A stretch of DNA of 51,517 bases, from positions 1 to 51,517 of the forward strand of contig JAKBZR010000014.1 in the NCBI GenBank assembly GCA_021842405.1, given 5' to 3'. Below, one piece after another: positions 39,570 through 47,201 of this stretch (positions are counted from its first letter, which is position 1; each line of letters begins with the position of its first letter). A program made the position numbers and the translations under genes. Origin of the DNA: a bacterium. GTDB lineage: Bacteria; Armatimonadota; Chthonomonadetes; Chthonomonadales; JAMCWF01. The notes beneath the pieces were generated by a model. That model did no database searches, was not told where the DNA came from, and saw only the letters and a list, made by a program, of their open reading frames with translations.

Positions 39570-39779
39570 GAATGAGTTCAGTTCTCTGGGTAATTTAGGT
39601 AGCAGGCTCTTACCCTCACCGCAATTATCAACTCCCTCCCCCGTTGACGGGGGAGGGCTGCCGCAACTTACGTGGATGCCGGGGTTGAAATCGCTCCCTC
39701 CCCCGTTGACGGGGGAGGGCTGGGGTGGGGGGTGCATCCAATATGGTCGTAAATGATTCCCGTAGAACTGAACTCGTTC
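39570..39779. repeat. Dispersed repeat family A, copy 6 (reference copy, 210 bp)
   Basis: The best preserved copy. Its ends GAATGAGTTCAGTTC (39570-39584) and GAACTGAACTCGTTC (39765-39779) are inverted with 14 of 15 bases matching. The interior has two hairpins of the type CCCTCCCCCGTTGACGGGGG separated by about 50 bases. It fills the 5' part of the 507-base gap 39538-40044; the rest (39780-39974) shows nothing recognisable. Confidence 0.8.
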
Positions 39780-40044: not shown

Positions 40045-40806
40045 TTAGGGGCAATCGAAGTAGGAATTGGTGCTCGGGTCATATCCGTTAAACCACCAGA
40101 AGTTCCAGTTCACGCCGTCATCGCCCCGCTGGCCGGCCGGGCAGACCGACGGGATGATGAACTTTGCATGACCATCCATATAGATCACGTTAAATGCGCG
40201 ATCCGGCCCCATCAACGAGTACGGCACCAGGCCCCAGCCGCTTACCGGATTGGATGGCTCGCCGACACCCGGACCCAAGCCGTGGTTCAGCTCCCATTCA
40301 CCGGCCCAATAGAGCTGTGCCGGCAACTGCCAGCTCGACTCGTTGTCCCAACCCCACCAGGTGGCCAGAAAATCGTACCCATTTCGGATGTTGTAGGAAA
40401 TTTGGGTAGGATCGTTCGGCCGCTCAATCGAGGAAGGACAATAGAATAACTGTGTGTTCTTGATGTAGGGTTGAAGCACCCATCCCCAGCCGATCAACCC
40501 CGGTGTGGCCGCATCTTGAGGATTATCGCGGCTGTATTCGAAGGTAAGCTGATCGGTGGGACCAAGCTGCTGGGCGTTGCCGCCGCCGCCGACCCAGCCC
40601 GCCGCATTGAGGCAGAGCAAATGGTCATCGTAATCCTGCGAATACATCATGTAGGCAATCCCGATCTGCTTCAAATTGCTGAGGCAAGAGATTTTTCGAG
40701 CCTCCTCCCGCGCCTTGGCGAAAACCGGAAATAGGATGGCGGCCAATATTGCGATAATCGCAATAACTACAAGTAGCTCGATTAAGGTAAACCCTTTTTT
40801 CTGCAT
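40045..40806 (-). CDS. Prepilin-type protein with DUF1559-like C-terminus (pseudopilin)
   Basis: A 253-residue type II secretion / type IV pilus-like prepilin. [19 protein letters not shown] has the KKG/FTLIE cleavage-methylation site of prepilin peptidase and the hydrophobic alpha-1 helix, leading into [19 protein letters not shown] and YSQDYDD. The C-terminal globular domain carries the DGH motif ([11 protein letters not shown]) of the DUF1559/H-X9-DG family. Such proteins are found in large numbers in Armatimonadota and Planctomycetes. GAAGGAGC about ten bases before the ATG is a good ribosome binding site. It is the last gene of a minus-strand cluster behind the sigma-LacI fusion and is followed by an intrinsic terminator. 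Its assembly partners are not in the window. Confidence 0.9.
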
Positions 40807-40902: not shown

Positions 40903-41151
40903 TCATGGCGCAACGCCCGATGGCGGCGCCATTCGCCTTACCGGTGAGGTTCGTGTTTGAGTGCCTGGCATCGCCGAGGTCGGCATGCCCATCTGGCGAT
41001 AACTCAGCCGCTTCCCATGTGGCTTGCTCTGGTAGGCATAAATGAGCACCAGCGCCGCCACAATCACCACGATGATAATCGTCGTCACAATCGGTGAAAT
41101 CGGTTGCCGCCATTTCGACTCCCGTTGATTTTTCAAGCTATCCTTCGCCAT
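40903..41151 (-). CDS. Small single-pass membrane protein
   Basis: An 82-residue protein with one hydrophobic helix, SPIVTTIIIVVIVAALVLIYAY (~19-40), a basic N-terminus (KNQRESKWRQP) and a Pro/Met/Thr-rich tail (GMPTSAMPGTQTRTSPVRRMAPPSG) that looks unstructured. GGGGGAGA lies just before the ATG. I cannot name the family. It stands 96 bases upstream of the prepilin on the same strand and downstream of the sigma-LacI fusion, with a family B repeat between. The context suggests an accessory protein for the prepilin or an anti-sigma-like partner; both are inference. Confidence 0.6.
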   Translation of the reverse strand: MAKDSLKNQRESKWRQPISPIVTTIIIVVIVAALVLIYAYQSKPHGKRLSYRQMGMPTSAMPGTQTRTSPVRRMAPPSGVAP

Positions 41152-41173
41152 TTAATCTCCCCCTAATGAGGCC

Positions 41174-41359
41174 GTTGAAAAAGTCGCTGGAGCCCATCGC
41201 TTCGTCATTCCCGCATAGCTCCACTCCAGTGGAGTGGATGGCGGGAATCCAGTCCCATACCTACCGCCAGGCAGTGATGCTGATGTTCTGGATTCCGGGT
41301 TCCGCTTTGCGGCCCCGGAATGACGATCCAGTGGGTGTTACTGATTTTTTCAACAACCA
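41174..41359. repeat. Dispersed repeat family B, copy 1 (186 bp)
   Basis: Ends GTTGAAAAAG (41174-41183) and TTTTTTCAACAACC (41345-41358) are inverted. The interior has a 52-base core at 41201-41252 around the palindrome CCACTCCA-G-TGGAGTGG that recurs with one mismatch at 44611-44662. It occupies the gap between the small membrane protein and the sigma-LacI gene. Confidence 0.72.
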
Positions 41360-41392: not shown

Positions 41393-43000
41393 TCAATCCT
41401 CGACATTTTTGCCGGATCGGTTCATTTGATCGGTACGGTTCGGCCGAATAACGGAATGGGTAATGCATGAGCTACCTGGAGGCGCGCAGCTTTCCCGAAG
41501 GATCATATCAATTGGGTGACTCTCGCGGATGGCGCCGGCCGGCTTCCCATCGCGAACAAAGTCAACCAACATATTGAGCGCCCGCCGCCCCATCAGCTCT
41601 AAAGGTTGCCGGAATGTGGTCAATGAGGGATGAAGCAGCCCCGCCGAGGCGGGATCGTCAAACCCAATGACCGACAACTCTTCCGGTATCGCAATATTCT
41701 CTTCCCGGGCCACCCGCATCAACTTTAAGGCGAAATGATAGCCGGTGGCAAATACGGCGCTTGGTCTCGACTTATGCCGGAACATTCGCTGCAGCACCAC
41801 CCGATCCGTTTCCGTCAACTCTCCCGCTTCGATTCCTGAAACCACGTTCAGCGGATCCAGCTCCAATCCCAAATTGCGTATTCCCTCTTGAAACCCCAGC
41901 CACCGGTCAAGCCAGTTGGAGGTCACGAAAGGAGCAACCATAATTCCCAACCGGCGGTGTCCGAGGCTCGCCAGGTATTGCGCCGCGGTCTGTGCGGCGC
42001 CCCGGTTATCACTATCCACACAGGAGGCATCGCCGTGCGCAACCGTGCCTCCTAGAACCACGAGCGGAGTGCCCTTGACGTCCAACTCTCTCAGCATATA
42101 GTCCCGGTTCCATACCGGAGCGATAATCAGCAAACCGTCCACCTTTTTCTCACGGGCAAGCTTTACGTAATCATCTCCCGCCATTACGTTGACGCTGATA
42201 TCAATTCCGCTTTTAAAGGCCTCACTTTGGATGGCGGACATCAAAGGGCCGGTGTAGTGATTGTTTTCAATGGCGTGCCCGGTGATCTCTTCGCTGAAGA
42301 CAATGCCGATTCTTAAGGGAGATGCAGAGGTTGACCGCTCATTTTGAACCGCTTTCCTCTCAATCCGGCGGCCGTAAGCGGCGCCGTCGTTGGAATAGAT
42401 TCCTTTAACCTTTTCGCGACTCGTTCGATTCAACCGATTGGGACGAGACGGACCGAAGTAGGGATCGCGCGCCTCCAGTGTTCGCTTCAATTCTTGAGTC
42501 GCCCGCCACAGCCTTGATTGCACCGTTCCCACCGGCACCTCCAACTTCTCGGCGGCTTGCCGGTAGCTCATTCCCTCCATCTTCACCAGCACAAACACTT
42601 CCCAGCAAAGCGGCGGCAGGGTAGCGATCGCTGCTTCGATTGCTTTGACGGACTCATGCCGGGCTAACCAGGTGAGCGGATCGGCATCTTCCCTCGCAGC
42701 CACCTCTTCTTTCAGGGGCTCGGCTACATAGCTTCCGCGCCGACGATTGCGGTTGGCATGAAGGTGAAAAGCGATGCCGTAGAGCCAACTGCCAAATCGG
42801 CCGTCTTCCCTCCAGGAGCTCAATGACTGAAAAGCGGCGATGAAGGTCTCTTGCGTGAGGTCCTCCGCTTCGGCATCGTTGGCGGTCAGCCGTCGCAGTA
42901 AAGAGAAGACCTTGCGGGCGTACCGATCGTAGAGACGGTCAAAAGCCTCCGAACGGCCTCGAATGCACTCTTTAACAAGGGAATGGTCGTCATCGCCCAT
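41393..43000 (-). CDS. ECF sigma factor fused to a LacI/PurR-type sugar-binding domain
   Basis: One uninterrupted 535-residue frame. Residues ~10-90 are sigma region 2 (FDRLYDRYARKVFSLLRRLT, DAEAEDLTQETFIAAFQSLSSW, GSWLYGIAFHLHANRNRR); ~115-175 are sigma region 4 (LPPLCWEVFVLVKMEGMSYRQAAEKLEVPVGTVQSRLWRATQEL). A basic linker (~176-228) leads to a complete LacI effector domain, ~229-505: IGIVFSEEI, VDGLLIIAP, GTPLVVLGG, CVDSDNRGAAQTAAQYLASLGHRRLGIM, PSAVFATGYHFALKLMRV, IPEELSVIGFDD, LHPSLTTFRQP. The usual ~60-residue LacI DNA-binding head is missing and replaced by the sigma factor. A ligand-controlled sigma factor is the simplest reading. GAGG precedes the ATG. Gene order: GH5-like enzyme, this gene, small membrane protein, prepilin. 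Confidence 0.9.
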   Translation of the reverse strand: MGDDDHSLVKECIRGRSEAFDRLYDRYARKVFSLLRRLTANDAEAEDLTQETFIAAFQSLSSWREDGRFGSWLYGIAFHLHANRNRRRGSYVAEPLKEEVAAREDADPLTWLARHESVKAIEAAIATLPPLCWEVFVLVKMEGMSYRQAAEKLEVPVGTVQSRLWRATQELKRTLEARDPYFGPSRPNRLNRTSREKVKGIYSNDGAAYGRRIERKAVQNERSTSASPLRIGIVFSEEITGHAIENNHYTGPLMSAIQSEAFKSGIDISVNVMAGDDYVKLAREKKVDGLLIIAPVWNRDYMLRELDVKGTPLVVLGGTVAHGDASCVDSDNRGAAQTAAQYLASLGHRRLGIMVAPFVTSNWLDRWLGFQEGIRNLGLELDPLNVVSGIEAGELTETDRVVLQRMFRHKSRPSAVFATGYHFALKLMRVAREENIAIPEELSVIGFDDPASAGLLHPSLTTFRQPLELMGRRALNMLVDFVRDGKPAGAIRESHPIDMILRESCAPPGSSCITHSVIRPNRTDQMNRSGKNVED

Positions 43001-43112
43001 GGGTGATCTATCCTCATTCGATAGTGGTTATTTCATTCCGTTTTGTTCGCAGTGTGAATCAGTCGTATGCCTGCTCCCCATTTATTCACCCATAGATGAT
43101 GAAAACCGAGAT

Positions 43113-44450
43113 TCAGATGCTCAGGCTCTGGTTGGTCTCGCGGATAATGGCCGCCAATCGAGGGGTTCGGGTCAGGCTTAAGGTGGTGGGATTTTGGGCC
43201 GGATCGCCATTATAAAACTCCCACGACCAGATGGTTGCGACCGGAACCACTCCTTCTCGAGTTTGCCGCAAGACATCCAGCACAAACGGCGATGAGACCT
43301 CCTTCCCATCCTGGAAAACCGGCCCCCCAAACTCGCCCAGGTAGAGCGCACACTTCATGGAGTCGGTCACTTGGCGGCTGTAGGGCAGCATCTGATCCCG
43401 GTTTTTATCGAATTCGGGTTTCAGCCAGCTTCCCACATCACCGGGGACCTTCGGCGGATACTGATGAACGCTGATCACGTCAATCGGCGGCGGGTTAAAC
43501 CAGCGCGTCATCTCCTTGTACTCGGCAAAGGTGTCGCCTCGCCAATCCATCGGATAGTTAAAGGGATCGGCATCGCGCTGGTGTTTCAGCATAGCTTGGC
43601 GGATATGCCACGCATACGGCCGCATGTCCGCATTGCCGCTGGTGATGGCATGATTGTGATCATGTTGTTTTATGAGAGCTGCCATCTGCTGGAGAAAAGC
43701 CCGGATATTGTTGGAGGTGGGAATTTCGTTGGCCGGCCTCTGTTTCCATTGAGCGGAGAGATCGGCCGCCAGATTATATTCATTTCCGACTTCCCAAAAA
43801 AGCACCCTCGCGTCATCTCGATAGCGCTCCACGATGGTGGTAACGTACTCCACCGCCAACTGATTGGAGAGCGTGCCGGGTGTGCAGAGGTCAACCACGT
43901 GCTCATCCGGTTTTCCCCGATATTTGCGGACGTAGTGCGGGATCATTCCGATATTAAAGAGCAGCGACGGCACCAGGCCGACGCCGTTGTCGCCGGCTGC
44001 CGCCATGGTGCGGTCATACGCCTTCAACCAACGCGAGCGATCGTGCTCAAAAATCTGAAAATCATCCCAGAGCCAGGTTGATCCAAAGCACCGAACCGCC
44101 TCAATCCCAATCGAGGCCGCATTTTTCAACGTCTGGGTGGCGCCACGATCATCCCCGTGCAAAAATCGGACGAACAGATCGGGGATGTTCGCGCCGACGT
44201 TCCGAAAGGGCTTTCCGCCGCGAACCAACTGAGCGCCCTTCACCTTGAGAAACGGTGAATGCTTCGATGGTTGATCTTCTTTGAGACCGATGGCTGCCGC
44301 CGCATCCGTCCCCATATTTTCCAGGCCGACCATCAACCCAATGCCCAGCAAATGCGCGAAAAAGCGCTTCCGCGTCATTTTGAAAGGTGATTCCGTACCG
44401 GTTGGCTGCTTATCGTCCAATTTAATTACCCCCGTCGGTTGTTTTCCCAC
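43113..44450 (-). CDS. Exported glycoside hydrolase family 5-like endo-glycosidase (mannanase/cellulase type)
   Basis: A 445-residue retaining beta-glycosidase of clan A. The acid/base is Glu224 in FWEVGNEYN and the nucleophile Glu373 in LYLGEFGGP, at the ends of TIM-barrel strands 4 and 7. Other family features are KGAQLVRGGKPFRNVGANIPDLF, WLWDDF and VISVHQYPP. A hydrophobic stretch at 29-43 (RFFAHLLGIGLMVGLENM) after MTRKR is a possible signal or anchor; there is no clear twin-arginine motif. AAGGGGCGG just before the ATG at 44450 supports this start, with the MTRKR Met at 44378 as alternative. Substrate is probably mannan or beta-glucan. It lies upstream of the sigma-LacI gene on the same strand. 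Confidence 0.85.
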   Translation of the reverse strand: MGKQPTGVIKLDDKQPTGTESPFKMTRKRFFAHLLGIGLMVGLENMGTDAAAAIGLKEDQPSKHSPFLKVKGAQLVRGGKPFRNVGANIPDLFVRFLHGDDRGATQTLKNAASIGIEAVRCFGSTWLWDDFQIFEHDRSRWLKAYDRTMAAAGDNGVGLVPSLLFNIGMIPHYVRKYRGKPDEHVVDLCTPGTLSNQLAVEYVTTIVERYRDDARVLFWEVGNEYNLAADLSAQWKQRPANEIPTSNNIRAFLQQMAALIKQHDHNHAITSGNADMRPYAWHIRQAMLKHQRDADPFNYPMDWRGDTFAEYKEMTRWFNPPPIDVISVHQYPPKVPGDVGSWLKPEFDKNRDQMLPYSRQVTDSMKCALYLGEFGGPVFQDGKEVSSPFVLDVLRQTREGVVPVATIWSWEFYNGDPAQNPTTLSLTRTPRLAAIIRETNQSLSI

Positions 44451-44588: not shown

Positions 44589-44745
44589 GGTTGTTGAAGA
44601 AGCCGCAGGCTTCGTCATTCCCGCATGGCTCCACTCCAGTGGAGTGGATGGCGGGAATCCAGCTCCCTGCCTACCGGCTGGTAAAGAATCGGCTGCCCAC
44701 CTTGTCATTGCGAGGAAGCCGCGCAGCGGCGACGAAGCAATCTCT
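44589..44745. repeat. Composite repeat: family B copy 2 plus CATTGCGAG-type repeat
   Basis: GGTTGTTGAAGAAG (44589-44602) is a family B end and 44611-44662 is the 52-base core shared with copy 1. It is followed by the GTCATTGCGAGGAAGCCGCG / GACGAAGCAATCTC pair (44703-44745), related to the internal repeat of family A copies 1, 3 and 5. The 485-base gap 44451-44935 otherwise shows nothing clear. Confidence 0.65.
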
Positions 44746-45641: not shown

Positions 45642-47201
45642 GTGGAGAAAGTGCTCATAACTAAAGAGAAGCCGCTACGATCCCTATCCAGTGGTGATGT
45701 GGATCTGGTTCAGGCGGCGGATGTCATTATCGAGCATTTCGGGTCGCGTGCGGTGACCATCGTCTCCCAGGGGCGCCAGAGCAGTGAGATCGCTCCCTCC
45801 GGCATGCGCCTGTCCGCCAACGACGGATACGTGGCGCTGGGCGACGCCGCTCGAAAGATGGCGCGGGTTGCAATCAGCCGCTACCGCCAGAGCTCGCTGC
45901 AAAAGCAGGGCATCCCGTTCGCCGAATCGCTGGATCGCCTCTTTCCCGATGGAGCCGCCTACCTTTCCCGCTGCATCCGATCGGTGGTCAGCGATGTGGG
46001 CAGGGTTGCCCGAAGAGAGCTGCCGACCATCTCGCTGGAGCAGTCCATTACCAATGCTGATGGCGAGGATTCCATCCCGCTGATGGATACGCTGGCCGAC
46101 GGAAACGCTGAGACGGACCCTTTGACCTCCTTATTAGAAAAAGAGGCGCGCGGCGACCTCAGAGAGGCGCTCCACCGTGCCCTGAAGCGGCTGCCGGCCA
46201 ACTACCGCGCCGTGCTTCTTCGCGATATAGAGCGGGAGCGCGTACGTCGCCGCGGAGAGGCGATACCCGCGGAGAGCGATCGCGAGCGGCAATCGGTCTG
46301 CCGCGCTCGAGCCACACTGGCCCGGCTGATCATCCAGGAGTGCGGGTCGGATAACCCCTATATCCAGATGCTGAAGCCACCGACCAATCCCACCGTTCGA
46401 GTGCGCCGTCACGATTCGATCGCACGGCCTCGATATCAATGGTCACCACAGCGGCAATCAGAGCTATTCCAACTGATGCTCAGCCAACCCTGGACGCTGC
46501 GAATGACTGAAAACGGCAATGCGCCGGAGGCGATCGCCCACGATGTCACGCCCGGTCATCATGCGGCAGCCCCTTCACCCGAGCTGCGCAAAGCGATGCG
46601 GGTCATTGACCTCTACACCATTGACACCGTGCGCCCAAAGGGTGAGGCCGCACAGCAGCTTTACGACCGAGCGCGGGCATTGAGGAAGGAGGGACGGCTG
46701 GAAGAGGCAATTATCGCCTATCGCACCTGCTATGAGGCGGAGCCATCCTTCGTGGCCGCCTATAACGAAGTGGGCGTCTTGCAAAGCCAGATGGGGCGAT
46801 TGAGGGATGCACTGCGGATCTATCACCATATCATCGAGCGACACCCGACGCGGGAAGATTTCTATATTGCAGCCACCAACGCGGCCGACATCTATTTAAC
46901 CTGGTTTGAAGCCGGACGCAATCGCGATGAAAATATTCAGCGCGCGATAGATTTCGCCGAGTTGGCGATGCAGCGCCCAACCCCCATGCGCGCCGCCAAC
47001 TTGATCCTAGCCTACGTGAAGGACCGCTACTACTTGCGCGCCCGGCAGGTGCTCGCCGATGCGATGAGCGGAACTTGGCCGAACTGCCCGCCAGAAAAGG
47101 CGCTTCATACTTTGAGCCAGATTCGCGACGAGGATTTAATTCACTGGTGGGTCTGGCTGGACGAACAACTCCATGAGGAGACACAGAATGAAAATCATTA
47201 A
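45642..47201 (+). CDS. Sigma-70-like protein fused to TPR domain
   Basis: A 519-residue protein. Residues ~55-230 resemble a divergent sigma factor: a region 2-like helical part (~60-125), then SLEQSI..DGEDSIPLMDTLAD (~131-152), a region 3/4 pattern EARGDLREALHRALKRLPANYRAVLLRDIE (~168-197) and a degenerate helix-turn-helix ending RERQSVCRARATLARLI. Residues ~337-420 hold TPR repeats (GEAAQQLYDRARALRKEGRLEEAIIAYRTCYEAEP, AAYNEVGVLQSQMGRLRDALRIYHHIIER), and the end is helical. The linker (~235-330) is probably disordered. GTG start at 45642 after AGAGAGGAAAA. The first micro-membrane protein gene begins inside its end. Activity as a true sigma factor is unproven. Confidence 0.65.
   Translation: MEKVLITKEKPLRSLSSGDVDLVQAADVIIEHFGSRAVTIVSQGRQSSEIAPSGMRLSANDGYVALGDAARKMARVAISRYRQSSLQKQGIPFAESLDRLFPDGAAYLSRCIRSVVSDVGRVARRELPTISLEQSITNADGEDSIPLMDTLADGNAETDPLTSLLEKEARGDLREALHRALKRLPANYRAVLLRDIERERVRRRGEAIPAESDRERQSVCRARATLARLIIQECGSDNPYIQMLKPPTNPTVRVRRHDSIARPRYQWSPQRQSELFQLMLSQPWTLRMTENGNAPEAIAHDVTPGHHAAAPSPELRKAMRVIDLYTIDTVRPKGEAAQQLYDRARALRKEGRLEEAIIAYRTCYEAEPSFVAAYNEVGVLQSQMGRLRDALRIYHHIIERHPTREDFYIAATNAADIYLTWFEAGRNRDENIQRAIDFAELAMQRPTPMRAANLILAYVKDRYYLRARQVLADAMSGTWPNCPPEKALHTLSQIRDEDLIHWWVWLDEQLHEETQNENH

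Follow-up and report, generated by a model that had tools for sequence, protein, structure and literature searches.

An ECF sigma factor joined in frame to a LacI-type effector domain: a candidate ligand-gated sigma factor in an Armatimonadota draft genome

A single gene in a draft genome of the phylum Armatimonadota (3.5 Mb, 174 contigs) encodes an ECF sigma factor that continues, within the same open frame, into a LacI-type effector domain, which raises the question of whether a sigma factor can be placed under the direct control of a small molecule bound by its own polypeptide chain. The window analyzed here, which means the whole stretch of 51,517 nucleotides, is contig 171 of that draft, and the features of the locus are collected in Table 1. 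Its prepilins of the DUF1559 type would themselves hint at Armatimonadota.

Domain organization and genomic setting

The frame begins with an ATG and runs for 535 codons. Its product gave four Pfam matches, all over the curated cut-offs and far beyond chance, which are those to sigma regions 2 and 4 (Table 1), to Peripla_BP_3 at residues 340–505 (1.6e-30), and to Peripla_BP_1 at residues 253–482 (4.7e-12). The domain search proposed in a preliminary description of this DNA thus found Sigma70_r2, Sigma70_r4_2, and Peripla_BP_3, and the single frame holding ECF regions 2 and 4 and then a full LacI-type domain, as described there, was confirmed. With NCBIfam, many ECF models matched within residues 3–180 and many LacI-family models within about residues 250–510. 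The ECF part consists of regions 2 and 4 with 31 residues between them, without regions 1.1 or 3. No LacI head (PF00356, at 1e-3), GntR head (PF00392), or other helix-turn-helix was found in the protein by Pfam besides sigma region 4, in agreement with the earlier claim that the DNA-binding head of LacI is missing.

In the AlphaFold2 model, which was built from an alignment of 43 rows, the mean pLDDT was 83.4 and both domains were confident, whereas residues 183–224 were below 50. The best Foldseek matches of the model were all to the LacI family, namely CelR with cellobiose, RbsR, LacI ancestors, PurR, and AraR; by sequence, the nearest structures were SigE, SigH, and RpoE for the sigma half and a LacI ancestor and PurR for the sensor half. 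The linker between the halves, previously put at about 50 residues and called basic, was found to have 46 residues with 11 K/R against 4 D/E, and it is predicted to be disordered. In LacI proteins, a short hinge couples the sensor to the head. The fusion shares the fold of the effector domain with the LacI/GalR family repressors, but the sigma domains stand before the core, and the flexible linker is present in place of the helix-turn-helix and hinge helix. Both the sigma half and the LacI half look intact and complete.

Table 1. Positions of the features of the fusion gene and its surroundings in the window.
Feature	Position	Strand	Basis
ECF sigma and LacI effector-domain fusion gene, 535 aa	41393..43000	-	open frame, Pfam, NCBIfam, AlphaFold2, Foldseek
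Sigma region 2, residues 23–88	42737..42934	-	Pfam Sigma70_r2, 1.6e-15
Sigma region 4, residues 120–168	42497..42643	-	Pfam Sigma70_r4_2, 1.1e-12
Basic flexible linker (junction), residues 183–228	42317..42454	-	pLDDT, composition, unique DNA
LacI-type effector domain, residues 229–510	41471..42316	-	Pfam, Foldseek, tree sister of GntR-LacI L009
Ribosome-binding-site-like GAGGA	43011..43015	-	sequence; 10 nt 5' of the fusion ATG
Putative autoregulatory ECF promoter, GAACAAA-N15-CACT	43023..43048	-	shared with the ECF clade only; 48 nt 5' of the ATG
GH5 endo-mannanase-like protein with Tat-like signal, upstream	43113..44450	-	phmmer to 8d89, a GH5 endo-mannanase, 2.2e-16
Small membrane protein, 82 aa, downstream; possible target	40903..41151	-	open frame; no Pfam family; 241 nt from the fusion
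DUF1559-type prepilin, downstream; possible target	40045..40806	-	Pfam N_methyl and DUF1559

The neighbors named in the preliminary description, a GH5-like gene on one side and a gene for a small membrane protein and a prepilin gene on the other, all on the minus strand, were found as described, and no Pfam or NCBIfam family matched the GH5 endo-mannanase-like protein over the cut-offs. Just behind the stop codon of the fusion lies a repeat element, MITE- or REP-like and about 170 bp long (41170–41345), with a partial copy at 44609–44681; its predicted fold is very stable (z −4.8), and the genome contains 53 matches to it, corresponding to some 40 or more copies. Because this folding repeat stands between the fusion and the membrane-protein gene, it is not certain that the downstream genes are co-transcribed with the fusion. 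Two other observations concern the same contig. A 519-aa protein encoded on the plus strand at 45642–47201, 2.6 kb from the fusion, has a weak likeness to sigma-70 in its middle (NCBIfam WhiG at residues 129–192 and ECF models at about residues 142–231, with E values of about 0.002–0.004 that are below the cut-offs), followed by TPR repeats, and it is possibly another, degenerate sigma-type fusion. In addition, two identical 29-nt copies of CTCCCTCCCCCGTTGACGGGGGAGGGCTG, each with an inverted repeat, are located at 39632–39660 and 39694–39722.

Parentage of the sigma and sensor halves

The closest relatives of the sigma domains, with about 41–50% identity, were the standalone ECF factors L011, L055, and L071–L074. 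In a tree of 40 rows, the sigma half of the fusion was nested in a 10-row ECF clade with a support of 95, within which the inner order is uncertain. The six closest standalone genes encode proteins that end in HVL or HAL (HVLR in L072), and each of these genes runs 11 to 23 nt into the one that follows. The product of the overlapping gene consists of a short N-terminal stretch, a single hydrophobic segment, and a large remaining part. Behind L011 and L055, and also behind L090 of the same clade, the downstream product carries the HxxxCxxC motif of zinc-binding anti-sigma factors, which is absent behind the others. These single-pass membrane proteins look like anti-sigma factors, as judged by their layout and, in some, by HxxxCxxC. 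No anti-sigma-like open frame was found downstream of L075. The fusion thus shares its sigma lineage and, as described below, its promoter motif with ECF factors paired with membrane anti-sigma factors, but it differs from them in that no anti-sigma-like gene follows it: the frame runs into the LacI domain, and the next gene is 241 nt away. As a separate observation, the membrane proteins behind the ECF genes L055, L061, L062, L072, and L073 have in common a motif near TWHFxGWR...RWEIWxRRxPFxYRE, which follows the hydrophobic segment in proteins with or without a zinc-finger N-terminus, and the region of this motif is possibly an unrecognized sensor domain of anti-sigma factors.

The motif upstream of the fusion reads as a putative autoregulatory promoter with an AAC-type −35 element. 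Its likeness between the window and three relatives was spotted by eye, and the tests came after. With loosened ends, the motif was present 46–60 nt upstream of L071, L072, L073, L074, and L075, that is, in 5 of the 8 scanned clade members from outside the window, compared with 0 of the 37 non-clade ECF genes (Fisher p 4.6e-5); L055 has the motif with one base less spacing, and L011 has the CACT part only. A pattern search of six genomes gave 12 sites, 5 of which were just upstream of ECF genes, including a site upstream of the ECF gene L111, which was unused in defining the motif. The reversed pattern gave 14 sites in the same six genomes as against those 12, so that the total number of sites is not enriched and only their placement before ECF genes is. 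When the 100 bp upstream of the fusion was shuffled, an equally good match arose with a p of 5e-5, a value that is somewhat too favorable, the window having itself contributed to the choice of consensus; the window also matched at every fixed position of a consensus made from the other clade members alone. The full GAACAAA-N15-CACT match is the only one in the window and the only one in its own genome, in which two other sites, of the form GAACAA-N16-CACT, lie within coding sequence and look like chance. At the sequence level, the evidence is good that the ancestral promoter is still recognized by the sigma half, which drives its own gene. Since the genome has no other full match, the direct regulon may be the fusion gene and what follows it, or it may involve other targets with more degenerate sites.

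The nearest relative of the LacI half was L009 from the sole other available genome of the genus, with 43% identity over residues 211–507. L009 consists of a GntR winged helix (Pfam GntR, 8.6e-20) and a LacI domain. In a tree of 36 LacI domains, the fusion and L009 were sisters (SH-aLRT 99), and the surrounding group was almost all GntR-LacI proteins; a script assigned these head types by a simple rule applied to the text, and Pfam confirmed the type for L009 only. The stretches S-N-x-x-D-R and G-F-D-D-P are common to the fusion and L009, and the arginine and aspartate in them align with what we take to be the sensor-pocket residues R196 and D275 in the numbering of PurR. A prepilin gene adjoins L009 as well, which represents weak synteny, because prepilin N-termini are conserved generally. 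With respect to the earlier assignment to a LacI effector domain, the fold is therefore upheld by Pfam and Foldseek, and the origin is refined to regulators of the GntR+LacI type, not a LacI repressor. The fusion belongs to the same effector-domain lineage as the GntR/LacI chimeric regulators (AraR type, including L009), but it carries an ECF sigma factor at the position of their GntR winged-helix head. Judged from these relationships, the fusion is a true two-parent chimera, and its parentage puts the sensor in the place expected of the anti-sigma gene and the sigma factor in the place expected of the GntR head.

Occurrence and integrity of the join

In the 291 genomes of the phylum, no second full-length match to the fusion was found among the matches listed, and a profile search of the same genomes gave more than 100 LacI-domain proteins, of which, among the matches listed, the fusion only had a sigma domain; these searches scored the best few candidates per genome and should favor a true double-domain homolog. 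A homolog from a related genome with this order of domains, on which the preliminary description had made its claim depend, was accordingly absent from the matches listed for these 291 genomes. Scanning 84,980 species genomes with a peptide pattern revealed no close relative, and no protein with the same architecture was found among the best matches in plasmids. Several candidates were rejected on inspection. H1, on an Ensifer plasmid, covered most of the query but consisted of two genes, an ordinary one for a LacI protein and behind it one for an ECF factor, and H2 was an ordinary LacI regulator. Among the LacI-type matches listed in the phylum, the longest open frames, which reached 573 aa, encoded ordinary LacI or GntR-LacI proteins whose start was preceded by a long leader, and L099, an ECF match in a 519-aa open frame, was without a C-terminal extension. 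The fusion is a singleton from one draft assembly with respect to the 291 phylum genomes, among the matches listed, and this status lowers confidence in it.

The two sides of the join have the same GC3, which is 0.65 for both region 2 and the LacI domain, whereas the linker has a GC3 of 0.52 and a GC2 higher than its GC1. The linker appears less gene-like, which may fit former non-coding or out-of-frame DNA, although the indication is weak for such a short segment. Residues 211–228 of the linker align weakly to L009 where its GntR domain ends, an alignment that is not significant alone. Inspection by eye of the remaining linker frames revealed no remnant of a GntR domain or an anti-sigma factor, and the lack of a GntR or LacI head between the halves indicates that a frameshift joining two adjacent genes does not explain the fusion. 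It is also unlikely that the LacI part is translated by itself, since the stretch joining the halves showed no in-frame start codon with a ribosome-binding site.

A recent accident following the loss of the anti-sigma gene might have left an active or decaying sigma factor with the LacI domain as a mere passenger and no control by a ligand. Such uncoupling is suggested by the singleton status in the phylum, among the matches listed, and by the linker, which has no predicted structure and the composition given above; however, the halves, though diverged from their nearest relatives to 50% and 43% identity, contain neither a stop nor a frameshift and have kept their key residues, which implies that both have been kept if the join is old, and the residues of the sensor pocket are conserved. 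We regard uncoupling as unlikely. We give still less credence to a chimera of assembly or sequencing, in which two separate genes were joined in the draft. The division of the draft into 174 contigs, the lack of an independent genome with the same join, and a linker composition unlike that of both halves are points in its favor, but the DNA of the junction has no second copy in the genome, and the nearest paralogs of the halves in the same genome have at best 35% and 32% identity, none being near-identical, which makes a repeat-driven mis-assembly at the join unlikely; moreover, the join is in frame, the GC3 is equal on both sides, and the GntR head is wholly missing. The retained promoter and the apparently intact domains argue against a dead or artefactual fusion. 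Sigma region 2 binds core polymerase and the −10 element. It is likewise improbable that the sigma domains are a DNA-binding head only, so that a LacI-core dimer with two region 4 units would be a sugar-responsive repressor or activator at −35-like sites, since region 2 is fully kept and the −35 and the second promoter element are both conserved upstream, even though the sigma domains sit where the sister protein has its GntR head.

Possible mode of control and its meaning

We are inclined to favor, as moderately probable, the reading of the fusion as a one-component, ligand-gated ECF sigma factor, for which we infer the gating, the ligand, and the dimerization. The anti-sigma partner would have been lost, and an effector domain of the GntR/LacI type would have come into its place through the flexible linker. 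This domain, probably a dimer like other LacI-family cores, would block or license the access of the sigma domains to core RNA polymerase depending on the bound small molecule. Our guess for the ligand is a plant-cell-wall sugar such as a manno-oligosaccharide, and a mannan-derived compound is suggested by the GH5 mannanase-like neighbor. The first target would be its own promoter, giving positive feedback, and perhaps the genes behind the fusion. Caution is called for by the model, in which coupling of the sensor to the sigma domains is not evident, the linker being long and predicted to be disordered; given such a linker and no evident interface, the control may be exerted by steric hindrance in a dimer, or the sensor may dock on the sigma domains. 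As to the more specific proposal that a cytoplasmic sugar, bound to the LacI-type domain of the same chain, directly switches promoter selection by the polymerase, with the sigma factor having replaced the GntR head and the anti-sigma factor having been dropped, we consider the chances to be even.

In cellulolytic clostridia, SigI-RsgI pairs sense extracellular carbohydrates through a separate membrane anti-sigma factor. The fusion as read here would resemble them in tying an alternative sigma factor to carbohydrate sensing, but the sensing would be cytoplasmic and within one chain, whereas the anti-sigma factor of SigI-RsgI is separate and senses outside the cell. ECF factors with C-terminal extensions that act by conformational change form a recognized group that includes the SnoaL-type ECF41 and the metal-responsive CorE, and such extensions are said to stand in for the anti-sigma factor that these proteins lack (PMC8999054, PMC8103513). 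The extension types described there are SnoaL, TPR, Cys-rich, WD40, and ZAS/TM (PMC8999054), and none of these is present in the fusion, whose extension matches Peripla_BP_3 and Peripla_BP_1 only. Like the C-terminally extended ECF groups in that account, the fusion carries its sensory domain in the same frame and lacks a neighboring cognate anti-sigma gene (PMC8999054). It differs from them in being present as one copy in 291 genomes, among the matches listed, whereas those groups are conserved across many genomes, and in having a LacI-type sugar-binding domain. The suggestion in the preliminary description that the architecture is absent from the described groups holds for the open-access reviews in a comparison that is not exhaustive, in that they contain no LacI/Peripla_BP type of C-terminal extension.

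If the reading as a ligand-gated sigma factor is true, allosteric sugar sensing and sigma-factor exchange would be joined in one protein that needs no partner, and the list of sensory domains able to replace an anti-sigma factor would become wider. It would also mean that a LacI-type core can control more than a small DNA-binding head, and the protein could provide a compact ligand-inducible sigma factor for synthetic circuits.
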